Source: Escallonia rubra (Eukaryota > Streptophyta > Magnoliopsida > Escalloniales > Escalloniaceae). From it: a stretch of 64,000 bases of DNA. The number at the start of each line of letters is the position of its first letter. Position 1 is the stretch's first letter. The notes under the pieces are model-generated. The model had not been told where the DNA came from. It worked only from the letters and a program-made list of their open reading frames with translations, and did not search any database. Where the stretch lies: contig JAVXUO010001025.1 in the NCBI GenBank assembly GCA_033065855.1, forward strand, positions 124,001-188,000, read 5' to 3'. A program made the translations under genes and the position numbers. Of this stretch, positions 1 through 64,000 are shown in pieces.

Positions 1-1157
1 GAGGAAGTTTATGTGGCTCAACCTCCCGGTTTTGAACACGAAAATTTTCCAAACCATGTTTTCAAGCTTAGCAAAGCTCTTTATGGTTTAAAACAATCTT
101 CTAGAGCTTGGTATGAAAGGCTAAGTATCTGTCTTTTGGAAAATGATTTTTAAAGAGGAAAACTTGACACCACTCTCTTTATAAAATCTAAGGGCAAGGA
201 CTTATTGTTGGTGCAAATTTATGTTGATGATATTATATTTGGTGCTACTAATGGATCCTTGTGCGAAGAGTTTGCTTCTTGTATGAGTAAGGAGTTTGAA
301 ATAAGCATGATGGGAGAACTCAACTTCTTCCTTGGATTGCAAATCAAGCAAAGCAAGGATGAAATCTTTATCAACCAAGCCAAATACACCAAAGAGCAAC
401 TCAAGAGATTTGACATGGAAGAATCAAATGCTTTTGACACTCCAATGAGCTCATCATTAAAGCTTGATAAAGATGAAAAGGGTAAGGACGTTGATATTAA
501 GCGCTATCGAGGTATGATCGGATCACTCCTTTACCTTACCGCAAGTAGACCCGATATAATGTTTAGCGTTTGTTTATGTGCTAGATTTCAAGTTTGTCCT
601 AAGGAATCTCATTTACTTGCCGTTAAGAGAATCCTTAGATATCTTAAGGGCACTCACAATTTAGGATTATGGTATCCTAGAAACTCATCATTTTTTGACC
701 TATTTGGTTACTCCGATGCCGACTATGCCGGTTGTAAAACTGAGAAGAAAAGCATTAGTGGCGGTTGTCAATTCCTAGGATACTCTTGGAGTTCCAAAAA
801 GTAATATTCGGTTGCACTCTCTACCACCGAAGCCGAATATTGGAGGTTGGCGCTTGTTGTGCACAAATTCTATGGATGAAACAAACCCTTTTGGATTTTG
901 GACTCAAGTATGATCATATACCTATCTTATGCGATAACTCTAGTGCCATTGACTTGAGCAAAAATCACATCCAACATTCATGGACTAAGCACATAGAAAT
1001 CAAACACCATTTTATCTGTGATCATGTGCAAAAAGGTGATATCATTCTCGATTTCGTGGACACAAATAACCAATTAGCGGATATCTTCACTAAATTGTTA
1101 GATTCGAAGAGGTTTACCGCTCTTAGAAGAAAACTTGGCATGTCTTCACCTATGTGA
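1..1157 (+). pseudogene. Copia reverse transcriptase and RNase H remnant
   Basis: C-terminal part of the copia polyprotein, open at the left window edge and read in frame 1 as [12 protein letters not shown], then LYGLKQ, the RT catalytic motif YVDD near 220-232, and MGELNFFLGLQIKQ. RNase H follows with GYSDADYAGC (about 708-738), LSTTEAEY (about 820-840) and the terminal part with ILCDNSSAI and ADIFTKLL, ending at 1157. Three lesions are visible: an in-frame TAA at 151-153, a TAA at 802-804 where a Gln codon is usual, and a frameshift near 843, after which the reading continues in another frame. In life the domain copies element RNA to DNA and removes the RNA strand in the particle. It is certainly a retroelement and certainly non-functional. 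Confidence 0.9.
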
Positions 1158-1373: not shown

Positions 1374-1450
1374 AGTCGACTGCATGTTGAAATACAGTTG
1401 ACTGCATGTGTTGAATACAGTCGACTGCGTTACGCGAAAAGGGCATAAAT
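1374..1450 (+). promoter_or_regulatory. Internal cluster of three CAGTCGACTG-type palindromes, candidate internal promoter
   Basis: Three copies of the palindromic motif that also marks the LTR lie between the end of pol and the extra ORF: near 1374-1384 (AGTCGACTGCA), 1395-1406 (CAGTTGACTGCA) and 1417-1429 (ACAGTCGACTGCG). An AT-rich stretch GCATAAATC follows at about 1443 and a pyrimidine-rich leader at 1460-1550. The arrangement, motif array, TATA-like site, leader, then intron and ATG, copies that of the LTR at 4423-4612. Promoter activity is inferred. Confidence 0.5.
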
Positions 1451-1554
1451 CTGACCCATTTCGGCAGATGTCTCATTCTCTTTCAAACCCTTCGAACCCC
1501 TTTCTCTCTTCTCTCACACTAGGACTCAAATCTTTGCAGATCGGCTTGAAATTG

Positions 1555-2259
1555 GTATGTAATCCTTCCTAACTCTTGTTATATTACATGATTTCAACAC
1601 TTTCACCGATTGATTTCACCCACATTGTTCAAAATCTGTGTAAATTTAAATTGCTAATTTACTTCAATTGAGCATGCTATTACATGATTTAACTCTTGAT
1701 TCATGCTTAGGGATGCATATTACATGATCCTACATAGTTTAATTAAATGAATTCTTGCAACAATCGATTTCCCCCAAATTTCATAAACTAGGGTTTTTTG
1801 TAATGTCAAAATCTCTTCAATTAATTAAACAACTACATGTTTGATCACTTGATTCATGTTTAAATATGTCATTTGCTTGATTATTCATGGTTAATTACAT
1901 TCAATTTGTCCAAAATTGGTTCTTCCCCAAATTGCATAATCTAGGGTTCTTTATCTGTCAAAATTTCTTCAAATTGATCATGCAATTAGATGTTTTATCT
2001 CTTCATTCATGTGTAGTTATACATATTACTTGCTTCAACATAGTTACTTACATTCAATTCATAAAAAATTCACAATTTTCCAAATTGCATAAACTAGGGT
2101 TTATATATATATTTTAAAATTTTCACGTGATTTATTTTAACAAATTCATTAAAAACTTCACTTTTCCAACATTTCATAAACCCTAATTTTTTTTTTTTTT
2201 GCATTTTCATACATCTTACTTATGTCATTTATCTTCCAAATTTGTTAGATTGTTTTAAG
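1555..2259 (+). other. Predicted 5' leader intron before the extra ORF
   Basis: A good plant donor, ATTG|GTATGT at 1555, and an acceptor AG at 2258-2259 one base before the ATG of the extra ORF define a 705-bp T-rich interval free of long ORFs. The composition (T-rich, many poly-T runs) fits a plant intron. Splicing would place the leader at 1460-1554 directly on the start codon. Sireviruses need some means of expressing the ORF after pol, and a spliced or internally initiated message is a reasonable route. Predicted from sequence only. Confidence 0.5.
1774..2200 (+). repeat. Degenerate 153-bp tandem repeats inside the predicted intron
   Basis: The phrase CCAAATTKCATAAWCTAGGGTTT recurs at 1774, 1927 and 2080, exactly 153 bp apart each time, with a weaker fourth trace near 2165 (CATTTCATAAACCCTAA). 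Sequence between the phrases is also similar (a CATGTTT/ATTCATG stretch, then TTACATTCAATT). These are diverged tandem duplications. Confidence 0.7.
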
Positions 2260-2260
2260 A

Positions 2261-3513
2261 ATGGCTAGAGAGAAACGTGCACGCACTAGTTCATCCCGAT
2301 CACGAGCCGCACCCGCGCCCGAGCCCGAGCCTGCTCCGGTAAAGTTTGACCACAACCGCTATCGGAACCGCAAGGCTCTAGACCGTTTCTCCGCACAAAA
2401 CTCTTATCCTCTTGCTCCAGGTTTGCGTTTGGACACTCCATTTCTATTCAGCATAGGTGTACTTAGACACCTTCAGGATTGTTATCTTGACCGCCTTACT
2501 GATAGGAACATCATCATATATTATCCTGATGTAATCCGTCCTTTTATGCAAATTTGACTTGGAGCATTTCCACTGAGTCGTGTACACTCACATCGTATGT
2601 CTTTGGTCTGCGTCTCTCATTCTCTCAGTCTCGACTAGCCGACCTTCTAGACCTCCCCGACACTGGTTTTTTATTTTCACTAGAGATGATTCTTGTCGCC
2701 GGTCACTCACATTGATTTGACCGACCTTTCTCCATCGAGGAGCAGCTTCGACACACACTTCACAGTCGACAGATTAGGGCTGCACACAAGCCTACCCTTC
2801 GTGACCTACCACCTATGTCTCGACTATTCCATCATGTCATCGCTTATAAAGGCATCCCTAGAGCCGGGGGTCTTTCATTTGTTTCTTACCTAGACGTCCA
2901 GCTCTTGGCCTTTTTTTGCTCGGGTACACCGATTAACCTCTCTCGTCTTATCATGTTGAACATGATTAGGAGCGCTTCTCATCCTGGCTTAGCTATACCT
3001 TACGGCCTCCTACTCACTCGCATTTTTGTTGCCTTTGACATACCTCTTCCCTGTGAGTATATTGAGGTGACACGACACAATGTACTAGACTGCTCTACCC
3101 TTCGTAGGAAGGGACTTTTAGATGATCGCTGTCGTTTCTTGCCTGAGCCTGACATGGACGCTGTTATGGCGGATGATGATGAGGACGAGGATAAGGATGA
3201 TGAGGGTGATGATGCTGCTAATACTCATGGACATGCCGGTGATGGGGCTGATCGTGATCCACCTTCATTGGTCATTTCGAGCACTCATGAGGCGGGCACT
3301 TCTTTCGGTCCTTCCGCGACGGGCATTTCTTCCGGTCCTACTACTACCGGATATGAAGCGATCCTAGCTCGCTTGGCTACGATGCAGTAGAAGCTACATG
3401 TCAATTTGGGTCGGTAGCTCAGTCGACGCCTTTCTCGCTTGGAGGACTTCTGCGGAGTTCAGTGTCCTGAAGAGGATATCTTTCATTCCCCACCTCTACC
3501 ATCGGGTCCTTGA
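2261..3513 (+). pseudogene. Extra Sirevirus ORF downstream of pol, decayed copy
   Basis: Starts at the ATG at 2261 with a basic and Pro/Glu-rich head (MAREKRARTSSS), then a folded-looking region shared with the minus-strand ORF at 62964-64000 (shared segments LFHHVIA, SYLDVQLL, LIMLNMIRSASHP, YGLLLTRI, EYIEVTRH), then an Asp/Glu-rich stretch near 3168-3213 and a Ser/Thr/Gly tail. Lesions: a one-base frameshift near 2541-2546, a TGA at 2713-2715 where the other copy has Trp, and TAG codons at 3388-3390 and about 3415; the original end was probably the TGA at 3511-3513. I see no signal peptide or membrane span, so envelope function is not supported. It resembles the uncharacterised 'putative plant transposon protein' family found in plant retroelements; this assignment is from memory of that family. 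Function unknown. Confidence 0.75.
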
Positions 3514-4073
3514 GACATTAGGACTTGATTAGTACTTTATGCTTCTATCTTTAGACTTTATTATGTATTTCAGACCTTGTCATGGATGCTACTCCTAGTA
3601 TTACATTAGACCTTGGGTTGATATTCTAAACCTTAGCACTTTCATCTTGCTACACTTATGATTCATATTACGTTTTTTTGTGCTATGTCTCCGAGTCTTG
3701 ATATACCTTTTGATAGATATTCAAGTCCTTATGTTTTCTTGGTTTTGAATGCCCTTGTTGGCTACATTGATTATTCGCGGATGGATACATATGTTGATCA
3801 CTTTCACGCACACACACACCCTTCATCCTTTTAATGATGTCAAAAGGGGGAGAAAGATTATTGATTCATACTTGTGTGGTTTTGATAATGAGCATATATT
3901 ACTTGAGTTAGGGGGATCCCTATATTGCTTAAGATAGGGGGAGCTTATTGTCATGATTTCTTCTCATGACCCCTTATGACTTATAGTGAGACTGTTATGC
4001 TTCATTGCGCATATTATCTTTTATGTCTCATAGTATTTGAATCAATGTTTGTCATCATAAAAAAAGGGGAGAT
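3514..4073 (+). other. 3' noncoding region with multiplied polypurine tracts
   Basis: Between the extra ORF and the LTR there are four G-rich purine tracts: 3841-3856 (AAAAGGGGGAGAAAG), about 3908-3916 (TTAGGGGGAT), 3931-3944 (AAGATAGGGGGAGC) and the terminal one abutting the LTR, about 4058-4073 (AAAAAAAGGGGAGAT). The last primes plus-strand DNA synthesis; repeated tracts are a known Sirevirus trait. The rest of the interval shows no ORF or clear structure. Confidence 0.75.
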
Positions 4074-4422
4074 TGTTAACCCTACGGCTATTAAACCTAG
4101 GATTATAGTTGGTTTTGATGATAACTAACATTGATAATTATGTTGTCTAACATGCATTGAGTTGATGAAGAAATAGATACAATCTTATACTCATGCAAAC
4201 GGACAACTAGACGAGCAAATCGATCAAAGACACTCAACGGATCGCTCCAAATAAGGAATTCGTCGGTTGAATTTTACAATGCTTTTATTTCCTTCTTTGT
4301 AAACTAGACATAGAGAGATGATCGTAACGATGACTGTATACCTAGAACTTGCCCATAGGTTTCCCTTGCATGCAAAAAAAGTTTTTCATTCTTTGAAAAC
4401 AAGGAAACTGCATTTTCTGGAA

Positions 4423-4612
4423 TGCAGTCGACTGCAAGTTGGGCAGTAGCCTATTACAGTCGACTGCAAGTTGGAAATTTTGAATTTCTAACGGCTACTT
4501 TGGGAATACAGTCGACTGCGATGGCACATTACAGTCGTCTGTATTTACCGTTTGGCGCATTTAATGCTCCACCTAACTCCAAACGGTCATATTAATTCCC
4601 AACTCTATAAAT
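4423..4612 (+). promoter_or_regulatory. LTR U3 promoter: CAGTCGACTG palindromes plus TATA box
   Basis: TGCAGTCGACTGCA, a perfect 14-bp palindrome, lies at 4423-4436, with variants at about 4456-4468, 4508-4520 and 4531-4542, all within 190 bp upstream of the TATA box at 4604-4612. The copy-2 LTR has seven of them in the matching place. Palindromes at constant positions upstream of TATA are expected of dimeric transcription-factor sites; the factor is unknown. Confidence 0.65.
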
Positions 4613-4999
4613 ACTCATCTTGGGCATAGTTTTGATTCATCAATTGCATATTCTCAAAGATCAAAGCAATTGTTCAATCTCTATTGGTTTCTAACATTTT
4701 CTCATCCATTTCAAGAGAGCATTTATTGTGAGCTTATATTTGAGAGATACACACTTTCATAAAGTCATCATACACTCATCTCTTTTGTTCTAGAGCTTAA
4801 ACTTGTACTCATCTACTTCTTGAGAGTGAAATCTTGTACACTTTTCATCATCTAACGTTTCTTGTATCAAAGCTTAGGGTTGTCAAACTTTGGAGCTTTG
4901 GGATTGTCAAAGCTTGTTCTTGATGTGGGTATAGCATCAAGGGATTGTAAGCAGTTCGATTTTGACCCGTAAGGAAGATCAGACTAGTGGATTCTAGGG

Positions 5000-5024
5000 C
5001 CTTTCAAGGGACTTCCTTGAAAGG
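5000..5024 (+). other. Conserved LTR hairpin in the transcribed part
   Basis: CCTTTCAAGG-GACTT-CCTTGAAAGG is a perfect 10-bp stem with a 5-nt loop in the region expected to be R/U5. The other copy keeps the hairpin at about 61377-61400, with one base lost from the stem, so the structure has been kept between copies. Confidence 0.6.
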
Positions 5025-5297
5025 GTGGACGTAGGCTTGAGGGTAATTCGAGCCGAACCATCTAAATCTCAAGCGTCAAGTAACTCTAAACCCTTCTCTC
5101 TTTATTATTGTTTTATACTTGTGTGGAGATTGGATAGATTGCTTATTTAAGTTATTGTATTTTGAGGTTTGTTGTTTAAAGCTTTTTAAATGTTCTTCAT
5201 TTTTCCTATAAGTTTGTAATGTTTAATCGTTAATTGTTTAAAGTAGTCTTAAACCCATATTCACCCCCCCCCCTTTAGGGTTATCTTTTTTGTTTCA

Positions 5298-6494: not shown

Positions 6495-7098
6495 GGGATA
6501 ATTATGAAAAACACCCTTATGGTTTAGGGTATTTGCAAAATAACACATGTGATCGTGAAAATGTTGCAACTGCCGGTTTTTGTAACAAAAATTGTCCAAA
6601 ATAACCTTGTATATAAACCTAAGATTGTTTTTGTGCGTCGTAATTCTTGAGCAGAGGGGCGGCACCACCACCCCAGCCACACCGCCGCCACTCCAGCCTG
6701 CCCTTCATCGCCACAAGCCCGAGCCCTTACCACCACCACCCAGCCATGCCCATTGTCTCCATAAGCCCAACCATTCTCTCTCATCACAACCACAACCTTG
6801 CCAAACCCATCGGCCTTTCTCTTTCGTCGCCACAATAATCCCACTGTCGCACCGCCCTCTTGTCTATCGTTGTCGAGTTTTACCCCTGTAGTATGCGGGA
6901 ACTTTTTGTGGAGTAATAGGCTTAGATGTTGCTAATTTACCCGAATTGTACAAACTTAAATCTAGGGTTTCAATCGCACCTTGGAATTGAAAACCTTTGA
7001 TTAAAACCCTAGATCTAACTATATGCGATTAGGGTTCAAATTGAAACCCTTAATTGTTGTTGACGTGGGTATGTGGTGTAACAACCAGTTAAATTTTT
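6495..7098. mobile_element. Partial MULE, inverted relative to its neighbour
   Basis: Starts with GGGATAATTATGAAAAACACCC, a diverged form of the terminal repeat of the element at 7099-8245. About 560 bp (6495 to about 7060) match the reverse complement of about 7640-8245, including the CA/CG-rich stretch AGAGGGGCGGCACCACCACCCC and the TCTAGGGTTT/AAACCCTAGATCT hairpin. No second terminal repeat is visible before 7099, so it is a truncated copy. No coding capacity. Confidence 0.65.
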
Positions 7099-8245
7099 GG
7101 GATAATTGCAAAAAATACGCTCGTGGTTTAGGGTATTTGTAATAAGCCCCCCTGAGGTTAGAAAAATTGCAAAAGAACACTTGTGATCGCAAAAGTGTTG
7201 CAACCGTTAGAAAAATAGTCCAAACTAGCGGATGCATTGCTCACATTACTAAAAAGTGCGTTTCATAAATATTAATATAATGTAATGACTGAAATGCCCT
7301 CTATTTATTTCTCTCTCCTAAATCCTTAATTTTCTTCCCTAATCTAATGAAACCAAACCCTAGTCGCACATCCACCTCTATCACCCCATCTGTCATCCTG
7401 CCCTACCCACGACTGTCGCTACCGCCATCGCCATCTGCCTCATCCAATCCTGTCGTCGCCACCTGCCTCATCCAATCCAATCCCGTCACCGCCAACACCC
7501 CCAGCCAATTTTTCCACCACTATCACCACACAATGCCGCAGCAGCAATCAGCACCTTATCCCATCATCGCCATCTGCACACCACCACTGCACCATGACCA
7601 AACACCACATACCCACGTCCACAATAAGCAAGGGTTTCAATTCGAACCCTAATTGCGTATACTTATATCTAGGGTTTCAATCAAAGGTATTCAATTGTAA
7701 GGTGCGATTGAAACCCTAGATCTAAGTTTGTGCAATTTGGGTAAATCAGCAACATCTAAGCCTATTACTCCATAAAAGGTTTCCGTCATACTACAGGGGT
7801 AAAACTCGACTACGATAGAGAAGATGACAGCAATTGGATTATTGTGGCGACGAATGAGAAAGGTCGATGGGTTTGGCAGGGTCATGGTTGTGACAAGAGA
7901 GAATGGCTTGGGCTTGTAGAGACGAAAAATGGTTGGGTGGTGGTGGTAGGGGCTCGTGCTTGTGGTGGTGGTAGAGGCTCGGGCTTGTGGTAATGAAAGG
8001 CAGGCTGGAGTGGCGGCAGTGTGGCTGGGGTGGTGGTGCCGCCCCTCTGCTTGAGAAGTCTGACGTACAGACACAATCGTAGGGTTGATATAAAGGGTAT
8101 TTTGGACAATCTTTTTATTTCATTAGACCGAGAAACCATCGGCTTTAACACTTTTACAGTCATAGGTGTTCTTTTGCAATTTTTCTAAGCTCAGGCAGCT
8201 TTCTGCAAATAACCTAAACCACGAGGGTATTTTTGCAATTATCCC
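7099..8245. mobile_element. Non-autonomous MULE with long terminal inverted repeats
   Basis: Left end GGGATAATTGCAAAAAATACGC and right end (reverse complement) GGGATAATTGCAAAAATACCC; similarity of the ends extends for 100 bp or more. It is flanked by TAAATTTTT (7090-7098) and TAAATTCTT (8246-8254), a 9-bp duplication with one mismatch, as expected of Mutator-like elements. The 1147-bp length almost equals that of the relative at 16016-17164. Interior: GC-rich, CCACC-rich stretches and a telobox hairpin (7667-7677 with 7711-7723). No transposase. Confidence 0.82.
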
Positions 8246-60165: not shown

Positions 60166-61147
60166 TTTTTATATTCATATTAGAGAGTAGTTTTAAAGAT
60201 ACAATAGTCAATATTAAGTTCTAATAAGTTAATGTAATGATAATGTTGAGTTTTAAAATGATTATAATTAGTTTTTAAATTTTGAGGACATAGTTGCTAG
60301 AAAGAAGCCGTAATAGATTAGTATATTAATTAAGTAGAATTTTAGAACGATTGATCACATTTTTTATTCTAAATCTCATAAGTTATTTTTTGGGTCTATG
60401 GATTTTAATTTTCATATTATAAAACACTTTTAAGGACATAATTGCCAATATGAAGTCTTAATAGATTAGTATATTGATTATGTAGCGTTTTAAAATGATT
60501 AGAATTAGTTTTTTAATTAATTTTTTCTTCTAAATTGAAAGTATTATTTTCGTTTTTATATATATGAGATATTATATTCACATTAAAGAGTAATTTTAAA
60601 GATACAATAGTCAATATTAAGTCCTACTATGTTAGTATAATGATAAGGTCAAGTTTTAAAATGATTAGAATTAGTTTTTTAATTTCAAAGACATAATTGT
60701 CAAAAAGAAGTCTTAATAAATTAGTATATTGATTATGTAGAATTTTAGAATGATTGATCATGTTTTTTATTCTAAACCTCATAAGTTATTTTTTGGCTCT
60801 AAGGATTTTAATTTCATATTCGAAAACGCTTTTAAGGACATAATTGTCAAAATTAAGTCTTAATATATTAGTATATTCACTTTTTCTTTAATATTCAGTC
60901 CTAATAAGTTAGTATAATGAGAAGGTTGAGTTTTAGAATCATTAGAATTATTTTTTGAATTTTAAAGACATAATTGTCAAAAAGAAGTCTTAATAGATTT
61001 GTATATTGATTATGTAAAATTTTAGAATGATTGATCATGTTTTTTATTCTAAACCTCAAAAGTTATTTTTTGGGTATATGAATTTTAATTTCATACTAGA
61101 AAACACTTTTAATGGCATAATTGTCAAAATTAAGTCTTAATAGATTA
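59885..61147. repeat. Degenerate tandem array cut by the Sirevirus insertion
   Basis: Units contain, in order, AGTCNTAATARRTTAGTATA, GTAGAATTTTAGAATGATTGATCATG, TTTTTTATTCTAAACCTCATAAGTTA and GGATTTTAATTTCATATT. Starts can be recognised near 60180, 60586 and 60894 (about 310-410 bp apart) with shorter sub-repeats of ACATAATTGTCAAAAWGAAG. The last unit ends abruptly at 61147, where the LTR begins. Confidence 0.65.
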
Positions 61148-62404
61148 TGAAACCAATAAAATAACCCTAGAGGGGGGCTGAATAGGGTTTTAAGACTACT
61201 TTAAAATTTAACAACCAACAAACCTCAATCTCAAAAACTCAAGTAAACAAACAACCAATCTCAACACAATATGTAAAACAATAATGTAAAGAGAGAAGGG
61301 TTTAGAGATACTTGACATGAAGAATTAAATGGTTCGGCTTGATATACCCACAAGCCTACGTCCACCCCTTCAAGGAAGTCCCTTGAAAGGCCCTAGAATC
61401 CACTAGTATGATCTTCCTTACGGGTCAAGATCGAACCTCTTACAATCCCTTGATGCTATACCCACATCAAGAACAAGCTTTGACAAACCCAAAGCTCCAA
61501 AGCTTGACAACCCCAAGCTTTGATACAAGAACCTTTCAATGAAGAAATGAGTACAAGATTTCACTCTTAAGAAGTAGATGAGTACAAGTTGAAGTACTAG
61601 AACAAGAGAGATGAGTGTATGATGACTTATGAAAGTGTATCTCTCTAATGTAAGCTCACAATAAATGCTCTCTTGAAAATGATGAGAAATCAATGAAAAC
61701 AAGAGAGATTTGAACAATTGCTTTGATCTTTGAGAATATGAAAGATAGGAGAGCTTTGAATGCAATTGATGAATGAAAACAATGCCTAAGATGAGTATTT
61801 ATAGAGCTGGGAATAAATATGACCGTTTGGGGTTAGGTAGGGTATTAAATGCGCCAAACGGTAAATGCAGTCGACTGCATTGCCCATTGCAGTCGACTGT
61901 AACCCAAAAAGTAGCCGTTGGAAATTCAAATTTCCAACTTGCAGTCGACTGTAATGCAATGCAGTCGACTGTAATAGGCTATTGGAAGTATTGCAGTCGA
62001 CTACATTCAATGCAGTCGACTGTAATACCCTACTGCCCAACATGCAGTCGACTGCATCCCTGAAAATGCAGTTTCCTGTTTTTAAAGCATGAAAAACTTT
62101 TTATGCATGCAAGGGAAACCTATGGGCAAGTTCTAGGTATACAGTCATCGTAACGATCATCTCTCTATGTCTAGTTTACAAAGACGGAAATAAAAGCATG
62201 AAAACTTCAATCGTCGAATTTCCTCTTTGATGCGTTCCGTTGAGAGTCTTTGACCGTGTTGCTCGTCTAATAATCCGTTTGCATGAGTATGAGATTGTTC
62301 CTATTGCTTCATCAACTCAATGCATGTTTAGACAGCATAATCATCAATGTTAGTTATCATCAAAATCAAATATAATCCTAGGTTAAATAACCGTAGGGTT
62401 AACA
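61148..62404 (-). repeat. Sirevirus 3' LTR, copy 2
   Basis: 1257 bp on the minus strand, TGTTAACCCTACGG ... TTATTTTATTGGTTTCA. It matches 4074-5297; the length difference is largely in the palindrome region. Confidence 0.9.
61795..62056 (-). promoter_or_regulatory. LTR U3 promoter with seven CAGTCGACTG palindromes
   Basis: Motifs at about 61866, 61888, 61940, 61960, 61991, 62011 and 62043 (the first and last are the full 14-bp TGCAGTCGACTGCA; the others differ in the outer bases). The TATA box (CTATAAATAC in the minus sense) is at about 61795-61806. Confidence 0.7.
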
Positions 62405-62963: not shown

Positions 62964-64000
62964 CTAACGCCTAAGGACCCGATGGTGGAGGTGGTGGATG
63001 AAAGAAGTCCTCCTCGGACACTGAATCCCACAATGATCCTCCATGCGAGAGAGGCGTCGACTGAACTGGCTATGGGCGAGATCCATCCGACTGAAACCGG
63101 CATGCATATGCTGCTGCATCATATCTAAGAGTGCGAGGATCGCGTCATATCCAAAAGTAGAAGGACCGAAAGAAGTGCCCGCCTCATATGTACTCGAAAA
63201 GATCAATGGAGGTGAATCACGATCAATCCCGTCGCCGGCAGCTCGATCAACATCAGCATCAACATCAACATCAACATCAACATCATCATCACCATCAGCC
63301 TCATCAGCCTCATCCTCATCATCATCGACAGGGACATCGTCCATGTCAGGCTCCGGTAAGAAGCGGTCATGACCATCTAAAAGGCCCTTTCTACGAAGGG
63401 TAGAGCTGTCTAGTACGAGGTGCCTAGTAACCTCAATATACTCACCCAGAAGAGGTATGTCAAAGGCAGCAAGAATGCGAGTGAGTAGGAGGCCATATGG
63501 TAGAGCTAAGGCAGGATGTGAGGCGCTCCTAATCATGTTTAACATGATGAGACGAGGGAGGTTAAGCGGTGTGCCAGAGCGAAAGAAGGTCAGGAGCTGA
63601 ACGTCTAAGTAAGAAACAAGTGAAAGACCTCCAGTTCTGGGAATGACGTTATGAGCGATGATATGATGGAACAGACGAGAGAGAGGTGGTAGGTCACGGA
63701 GGCTAGGCTTGCTCGCAACCCGAACCTGTCGACAATGAAGTGTGTGTCGAAGCTGCTCCTCAATAGTAAAAGGTCGGTCAAACCAATGTGACTGACCAGC
63801 GACAGGGATCATTTCTAACGAAAATGAGAAATCACTGTCGGGGAGGTCTAGAATAGTGGCTAGACGTGACTGTGAGAATGAAATGCGGCGTCCAAAAACA
63901 TAGGACGTGAGGGTACAAGACTCAGTAGCAATGCGCCAATTCAAATTCTCATAAAATAAGCGGATTGCATCAGGATAATATAGAGTGGTGTTCCTATCAG
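62964..64000 (-). CDS. Extra Sirevirus ORF, long open copy, 5' end outside the window
   Basis: About 345 codons without a stop, continuing past the right edge (the frame is open through YYPDAIRLFYENLNW). The first 210 residues are a compact region with FGRRISFSQSRLA, LDLPDSDFSFSLEM, SHWFDRPFTIEEQLRH, SRLFHHIIAHNVIPR, SYLDVQLLTFF, LNLPRLIMLNMIRSASHP, YGLLLTRILAAFDIP and EYIEVTRHLVLDS; then an Asp-rich stretch with (DV)n repeats, then a Ser/Thr tail. Compared with copy 1, one base is missing near 63020, so the last 15 or so residues are out of frame. No signal peptide or transmembrane span in the visible part. Its place after pol is that of the Sirevirus env-like gene, but the sequence looks soluble and resembles the uncharacterised plant transposon-protein family; function unknown. 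Confidence 0.78.
   Translation of the reverse strand, partial: DRNTTLYYPDAIRLFYENLNWRIATESCTLTSYVFGRRISFSQSRLATILDLPDSDFSFSLEMIPVAGQSHWFDRPFTIEEQLRHTLHCRQVRVASKPSLRDLPPLSRLFHHIIAHNVIPRTGGLSLVSYLDVQLLTFFRSGTPLNLPRLIMLNMIRSASHPALALPYGLLLTRILAAFDIPLLGEYIEVTRHLVLDSSTLRRKGLLDGHDRFLPEPDMDDVPVDDDEDEADEADGDDDVDVDVDVDADVDRAAGDGIDRDSPPLIFSSTYEAGTSFGPSTFGYDAILALLDMMQQHMHAGFSRMDLAHSQFSRRLSRMEDHCGIQCPRRTSFIHHLHHRVLRR

Follow-up and report, generated by a model that had tools for sequence, protein, structure and literature searches.

Here, we describe a candidate second promoter inside a long terminal repeat (LTR) retrotransposon of Escallonia rubra, found in a 64,000-nucleotide stretch of DNA (the window; assembly GCA_033065855.1, contig JAVXUO010001025.1, positions 124,001 to 188,000 of the forward strand). 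The window holds the 3' part of one copy of a Sirevirus element (copy 1) and, on the minus strand, part of a second (copy 2). Between the polymerase gene (pol) and an extra open reading frame (ORF) of the PF20167 family, copy 1 carries an array of palindromic boxes that recur in the U3 region of its 3' LTR, followed by a TATA-like core, a pyrimidine-rich leader and an intron. An internal promoter for the extra ORF, within a gene-like transcription unit of the element, is the best explanation of this arrangement and a likely one. The relevant features of copy 1 are as follows.

1 to 1157, plus strand: 3' end of copia pol (reverse transcriptase/RNase H), broken by stops and a frame change.
1373 to 1382: internal box 1, AAGTCGACTG, one mismatch to CAGTCGACTG.
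1395 to 1404: internal box 2, CAGTTGACTG, one mismatch to CAGTCGACTG.
1418 to 1427: internal box 3, exact CAGTCGACTG.
1434 to 1451, plus strand: core block GCGAAAAGGGCATAAATC, with CATAAAT at 1444 to 1450 as candidate TATA element.
1475 to 1554, plus strand: leader exon with a predicted start, pyrimidine-rich at 1476 to 1515, ending in ...GGCTTGAAATTG.
1555 to 2248, plus strand: leader intron, GTATGT...GTTAG, with three 153-bp repeats in 1656 to 2102.
2249 to 2260, plus strand: 5' end of exon 2, 12 nt ahead of the ATG, with acceptor TTAG^ATT at 2248.
2261 to 3390, plus strand: extra ORF, PF20167 (Transposase_32-like), broken into 2261 to 2557, 2530 to 2715 and 2716 to 3390.
4425 to 4541: four boxes in the U3 of the 3' LTR, exact from 4425, 4457 and 4509 and with one mismatch from 4532.
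4606 to 4613, plus strand: LTR TATA box TATAAATA, 64 bp past the last U3 box.

Both strands of the window were scanned for CAGTCGACTG with at most one mismatch, which gave 16 matches, compared with a mean of 0.72 and a maximum of 3 in 100 dinucleotide-preserving shuffles. Besides the internal and U3 boxes of copy 1 (imperfect in two of three and one of four cases, respectively), seven lie at 61868 to 62054, inside the minus-strand LTR of copy 2, and lone matches at 2763 and 15970 look chance-like. The first-pass annotation had placed three palindromes between pol and the extra ORF (1374 to 1429) and four in the U3 (4423 to 4542), with an LTR TATA at 4604; all are there, and the seven boxes of copy 2, of which it made no mention, are added to them. 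The internal and U3 clusters have a GC content of 0.42 and 0.44 and a CpG observed/expected ratio of 1.13 and 0.98. The usual GC threshold for a CpG island is 0.5, and the GC of both copy 1 clusters is too low for the CpG islands typical of Sirevirus RM boxes, which are discussed below. The box core, GTCGAC, presumably resembles the motif of a stress factor (CBF), taken here as a candidate only.

The genome (566,129,122 bases, 3222 contigs) was searched with the extra ORF, which gave at least 123 matches (117 of 999 candidates scored). Fifty copies were taken with their flanks, namely the 30 best (the first of which, L006, is copy 2) and the next 20, with three partial or contig-edge copies passed over; 12 diverged copies were chosen among those with 71 to 80% ORF identity. 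Two or more internal boxes are present in 49 of the 50 copies (copy 2 included), and an array with 22- or 23-bp steps in 9 of the 12 diverged ones. Followed beyond the window (L005), copy 2 has four internal boxes at intervals of 22 bp and, like copy 1, GGGCATAAATC. The first-pass annotation had tied its promoter to conservation of this cluster across the family, and the genome-wide check leaves that proposal unrefuted.

Internal boxes are 22 bp apart in 131 of 135 intervals (50 copies). Of the 47 copies in which both core and box were detected, 46 have the core 16 bp past the last recognised box, and copy 1 has the same distance; the core block is found within four mismatches in 49 of 50. Unlike the internal steps, those of the U3 are mainly 19, 20, 22, 32 or 52 bp. 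The TATA block was detected in 43 of the 50 copies (some others being cut by contig ends), and 42 of these 43 LTRs have the last box 64 bp from the TATA. The internal unit thus has CATAAAT 16 bp past its last box, versus CTATAAATA at 64 bp in the U3. The earlier idea of a second promoter of LTR type therefore stands in part: the box is shared, the array is conserved and the whole fits a promoter, but core and spacing differ from those of the LTR. At a helical repeat of 10.5 bp, the boxes are phased with a resultant length of 0.99 internally and 0.83 in the LTR; these intervals are inherited and hence not independent, and we make no claim from them.

Divergence was compared over 58 of 63 loci (the 50, the 12 and copy 1), placed by a core block with at most 4 of 18 mismatches; L050, L058, L061, L064 and L066 were dropped. 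Mean pairwise divergence was 3.4% for the last box and 3.9% for the core block (biased low, since loci were selected on that block), compared with 33.8% for the spacer and 37.6% for the leader (inflated by length changes, as the leader was compared ungapped). Core-block divergence was 2.5% among the 49 closer loci and 11.4% among the nine diverged ones. For box versus spacer, the values were 3.3% versus 26.6% in the closer set and 4.4% versus 27.3% in the diverged set, a contrast that neither the selection on the core nor the ungapped leader comparison affects. Aligned to copy 2, copy 1 is identical at 53/64 positions in the box region, 19/22 in the core, 19/23 at the exon end and 44/80 (55%) in the leader (1453 to 1540).

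Five related loci were hand-picked from a search with PF20167 (150 scored of 664 candidates) and taken with 1.9 kb upstream of each. At L076, L077, L079 and L080, pol is of copia type and 56 to 69% identical to that in the window, and a box array precedes a TATA-like motif by 12 to 34 bp. There are 7 boxes of TTTCAGTCGACT type (at most one mismatch) in L076 and 8 in L077, followed in both by CTATTTATA; L079 and L080 have about 12 and about 4 degenerate boxes of CATTCGACTG/CATTCGAATG type (counted without a chance control), followed by CTATATATA, which is the best TATA in the 1.9 kb of each. The first ATG in L076, 118 bp past the TATA-like motif, opens the PF20167 frame. LTR stretches L081 and L082 contain TTTCAGTCGA repeats and then a TATA-like motif (second best and best of the stretch, respectively). 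In the pairs L076/L082 and L079/L081, TTTCAGTCGA-type repeats stand in the LTR and in the internal array alike, those of the LTR being largely half-sites; covariation of the box variant between LTR and internal array, seen in these two related elements only, is suggestive only.

These data bear on two other explanations. The internal array could be a part of the U3 that was duplicated passively and is carried along in the family, and box flanks are indeed partly shared (up to 17 identical nt), with 41 nt matching the LTR array of copy 2 at 83%. Core and spacing are not common to the U3, however, the box is preserved despite a divergence of a third in the spacer, and the related copia loci carry their own box variant at the same place; on these grounds a passive duplication was rejected as scarcely credible. 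The boxes could also be targets or products of host silencing or of DNA structure, in the LTR and internally alike, with their position before the ORF incidental. The variation of U3 box number through a 71-bp insertion/deletion would suit this, as would parts of the published work on palindromic or microRNA-like structures and small RNAs in maize transposable elements. A 10-bp perfect palindrome, however, should make a poor hairpin, and neither the fixed 16- and 64-bp distances to two different cores nor the low divergence of box relative to spacer is expected of silencing targets, which makes this explanation very improbable.

Downstream of the array, the TATA-like site of the first-pass annotation corresponds to CATAAAT, which is weak on sequence alone, and the leader that it had called pyrimidine-rich contains the most pyrimidine-rich 40-mer of the first 5.3 kb (0.85, starting at 1476). 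Two leader types occur among L006 to L055 (...TCCTAGAACTCATTTCTTC... and ...ACGGCCTCATTTTTCGTGCATTCAG...); by eye, they are discordant with the ORF tree, which suggests recombination between copies.

The interval behind the leader, previously described as intron-like (26% GC and 42% T, versus 49% GC in the ORF), is a real intron, the evidence for splicing being evolutionary. In L017, L022 and L044, leader ...TTG joins exon 2 ACT... directly. A pattern for this spliced junction matched the genome seven times, versus none for the reversed control; two of the seven are L017 and L044, and L022 escapes the pattern by one base, so that eight loci lack the interval exactly from donor to acceptor. Near-identical pairs (L069/L071, 99.8%, and L072/L075, 99.3%, over 3 kb) reduce the eight to six groups. 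In BLAST searches of these loci against the window, the right side starts at 2248 to 2254 in all eight, and the left side reaches 1554 in L044 and L070 but stops short of it in the others, whose leader is too diverged to align. The intron state needs six changes on the ORF tree, at least five of them forced by well-supported branches; the tree alone gives no direction, and the changes are read as losses because the boundaries are splice sites. A donor is present in 46 of the 50 copies (TTGGTACGT in 25, TTGGTATGT in 21), the other four being the three intronless copies and the rearranged L050, and 45 have a recognisable acceptor with TTTAG or TTCAG at its end; a search for the unspliced acceptor with a looser-ended pattern gave 28 matches and one control match. 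The kept GT...AG ends and the exact absence from retro-copies are those of a spliceosomal intron. The two near-identical pairs may reflect recent multiplication of intronless copies or duplicated contigs. Each 153-bp repeat of the intron ends in AACTAGGGTTT or a similar telomere-box-like motif, and the tract is shorter in copy 2.

Splicing is also central to another explanation, in which the extra ORF is expressed in the manner of a retrovirus, from LTR-initiated RNA, by joining a donor in gag to the ORF acceptor, the boxes being an enhancer or a relic. Six gene models of E. herrerae (P0003, P0004, P0006, P0009, P0016 and P0027) join gag-like sequence to (I/T)ISS-MAREKR, a donor-like GATGAG/GTAAGC lies in the gag of copy 1 (L056:1157; a different point than the E. 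herrerae joins), and the intronless copies show pol-carrying RNA spliced at the ORF acceptor. Such a route gives no reason to keep the leader donor, core block and boxes, yet they are kept; boxes with a TATA-like motif lie shortly before the ORF region at related copia loci, without this intron (cleanly so in L076); and the gene models are predictions with highly variable upstream exons. We consider it unlikely as the explanation of the unit, though gag splicing may operate alongside an internal promoter, with both in use. One further E. herrerae model, P0017, reads ...GLKL/TISSM across the leader junction; being read from a protein model only, this is taken as a hint and not as evidence.

Assignment of the element to the Sireviruses draws on features both within and outside the unit. 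RVT_2 (PF07727) scores 63 bits over 154 to 801 (cut-off, 31.6), as for a copia-type reverse transcriptase, and the 5' LTR end of copy 1 (L056) is followed by AGTGGTATCAGAGCC, in line with the Sirevirus primer-binding site TATCAGAGC. Multiple polypurine tracts lie between the extra ORF and the 3' LTR, the terminal one being a variant. The LTR has CTATAAATA at 4605, downstream of the boxes as in Sireviruses, and this TATA ranks first of 5291 positions by a TATA matrix. Repeated palindromes occur both in the U3 and ahead of the ORF in the place of ENV, as in the RM system, with CAGTCGACTG in place of the CGG-CCG core. A run of C at 5264 to 5273, near the 3' end of the LTR, may correspond to the published polyC-rich integrase signal of Sireviruses. 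The remaining features of the two copies are listed below.

3845 to 3852, plus strand: Sirevirus polypurine octamer AGGGGGAG, with a second exact octamer at 3936 and one-base variants at 3910 and 4065.
4074 to 5297, plus strand: 3' LTR of copy 1, 1224 bp, TG...CA.
61148 to 62404, minus strand: LTR of copy 2, 1257 bp, with the seven boxes at 61868 to 62054.
62964 to 63998, minus strand: PF20167 extra ORF of copy 2 (53.5 bits; cut-off, 45), its frame open up to the window end.

Copy 2, which runs from 61148 to past the window end and has an open extra ORF as well as the seven U3 boxes, is new relative to the first-pass annotation. Its LTR is 88.4% identical to that of copy 1 over 1160 aligned sites. 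A tandem repeat of approximately 277 bp (1.9 copies, 60613 to 61147) adjoins the LTR end of copy 2. Elsewhere in the window, a 184-nt inverted repeat (89%; 6896 to 7079 and 7602 to 7785), with more arms outside, has a foldback-type structure.

The extra ORF has only PF20167 ("putative plant transposon protein") above cut-off; in copy 1, the last piece reaches 25.2 bits, below the 45-bit cut-off, and the first two are unmatched. The ORF-matched segment is stop-free in 41 of the 50 copies, and the median ratio of nonsynonymous to synonymous divergence (dN/dS) is 0.44 at dS below 0.05 and 0.17 to 0.26 at dS of 0.05 to 0.3, a pattern indicative of purifying selection. The 31 protein relatives listed all come from E. 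herrerae. No DNA-binding domain was recognised in a Pfam search, structure prediction for 13 E. herrerae proteins was uninformative (mean pLDDT, 36), and no relative was found by a profile search of solved structures with the extra ORF or by viral-contig scans with the extra ORF and pol. PF20167 is also reported in the extra ORF of sunflower Athila (PMC11728184). The PF20167 match at L078 has neither copia pol nor boxes in 1.9 kb upstream, and the family therefore occurs in other contexts too.

Taken as a whole, the order of boxes, core, leader, intron and ORF, the fixed 16-bp distance and the pattern of conservation fit a promoter for the extra ORF, and we infer promoter activity, factor binding, a start site and shared regulation from these sequence patterns. 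In the proposed mechanism, two to five palindromic boxes in 22-bp steps (22 to 23 in diverged copies) would bind a probably dimeric factor, which would also bind the U3 boxes, and the core at CATAAAT, 16 bp downstream, would set a start near 1470 to 1480. The transcript would have a pyrimidine-rich leader exon of about 80 nt and lose an intron of about 480 to 700 nt, with the ORF beginning 12 nt into exon 2. The extra protein would then be made from its own mRNA, bypassing gag-pol, and one factor would control both this mRNA and the genomic RNA. In plants, leader introns are reported to be able to increase expression (PMC5091777).

Several observations weigh against an internal promoter. The array is missing from 4 of the 62 copies (L050, which has unrelated, rearranged DNA at that position, and L061, L064 and L066, the boxes of L066 belonging to an LTR and not to an internal array), and the core is lost in L058. 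The copies share descent, and the counts are not independent; the core and leader divergences carry the biases given above; and the conservation of boxes between the LTRs of copies 1 and 2 (1 change in 40) is unexceptional, being equalled by 98 of 996 shifted footprints. CATAAAT ranks 18th of 5291 positions by the same TATA matrix and is a poor TATA alone, and the start site is a prediction rather than an observation. Exact intron loss proves splicing and not the start site, and all eight intronless loci carry pol as well as boxes upstream, which means that LTR-derived RNA (or a recombinant) was also spliced here. Among the related loci, L076 and L077 are 90% identical, so that the four represent three families; the boxes of L079 and L080 lack a chance control; the TATA-like motif of L076 and L077 is third best in its stretch; the first in-frame ATG of L079 is its second ATG; and L077 and L080 are broken copies, which leaves L076 as the only locus where TATA-like motif, first ATG and open frame come together cleanly. 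As a separate observation, L066 (1 to 1043) has a family LTR immediately before the intron and the extra ORF; the stretch examined contains no pol, and the locus may be a nested insertion or a deletion derivative.

The box architecture and the idea of an internal promoter have already been proposed for Sireviruses, and the headline is not new in kind. RM boxes are described there as palindromes in the U3 upstream of the TATA and again between pol and ENV (Bousios 2010, PMC2829016); 77 of 79 linker RM copies are upstream of ENV, in all nine ENV-bearing RM elements. According to the same source, an internal ENV promoter was hypothesised in 2002, with support seen and none conclusively identified. 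The boxes of our element share this placement in the U3 before the TATA and between pol and the extra ORF. They differ in being CAGTCGACTG in AT-rich DNA, whereas RM boxes have a CGG-CCG core, except Tnd-1 (ACAATCGATTGT), and are mostly CpG islands (PMC2829016); Tnd-1 being counted as RM without that core, the core is not strictly defining. The Vitis Sirevirus RM box CGGTCGACCG (two before ENV and ten in the LTR; PMC2829016, Table 3) is the same 10-bp palindrome as CAGTCGACTG except at two symmetric positions, CGG-CCG becoming CAG-CTG. A further difference is the conserved core, leader and exactly lost intron behind the boxes here; the main text of PMC2829016 has no word beginning "intron", and no report of a leader intron or intron-loss copies in Sireviruses was found in the literature covered, most subscription journals being outside its scope. 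What is new is the candidate core, a leader intron that has been lost exactly and recurrently, and a box that lacks CGG.

Spliced RNAs are reported for the plant LTR retrotransposons Ogre, EVADE and BARE, with an intron between ORFs (Ogre) or in gag (BARE) serving subgenomic RNAs (PMC12786077, PMC3735527). Our element likewise has a functional intron, but one that lies within the extra ORF's leader and follows a candidate internal core promoter. Grande gene23 is described as an extra gene with its own upstream promoter, antisense to gag-pol (Vicient and Casacuberta 2020, PMC7264820), whereas the extra ORF here is in sense orientation. Foamy viruses, by the accounts in PMC8670036 and PMC4929722, combine an LTR promoter with an internal one, both driven by one virus-encoded factor (Tas). 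The likeness is that of two promoters in one element, the internal one being putative here; the elements are unrelated, a host factor is equally possible in ours, and DNA binding by the ORF product is hypothetical. By this analogy, the extra ORF could encode a regulator rather than an envelope, binding the boxes of both promoters in a self-reinforcing circuit, which we regard as a speculative and distinctly doubtful extension. If it were true, the leader intron would keep the fates of two RNAs apart: RNA begun in the LTR would have to retain the intron in most cases to hand it on to new copies, and internal mRNA would splice it out.

For the question of an internal promoter in Sireviruses, this family offers a short, conserved and testable candidate with exact coordinates. 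It also brings a large number of natural copies, intronless alleles that can serve as natural controls, and related families whose arrays are followed by TATA-like motifs. Although exact loss is possible, 46 of 50 copies retain the intron, and this would call for splicing that depends on the promoter or for selection in favour of the intron. Since the leader intron has disappeared several times but persists in most copies, the way in which genomic RNA escapes splicing can be tested directly.

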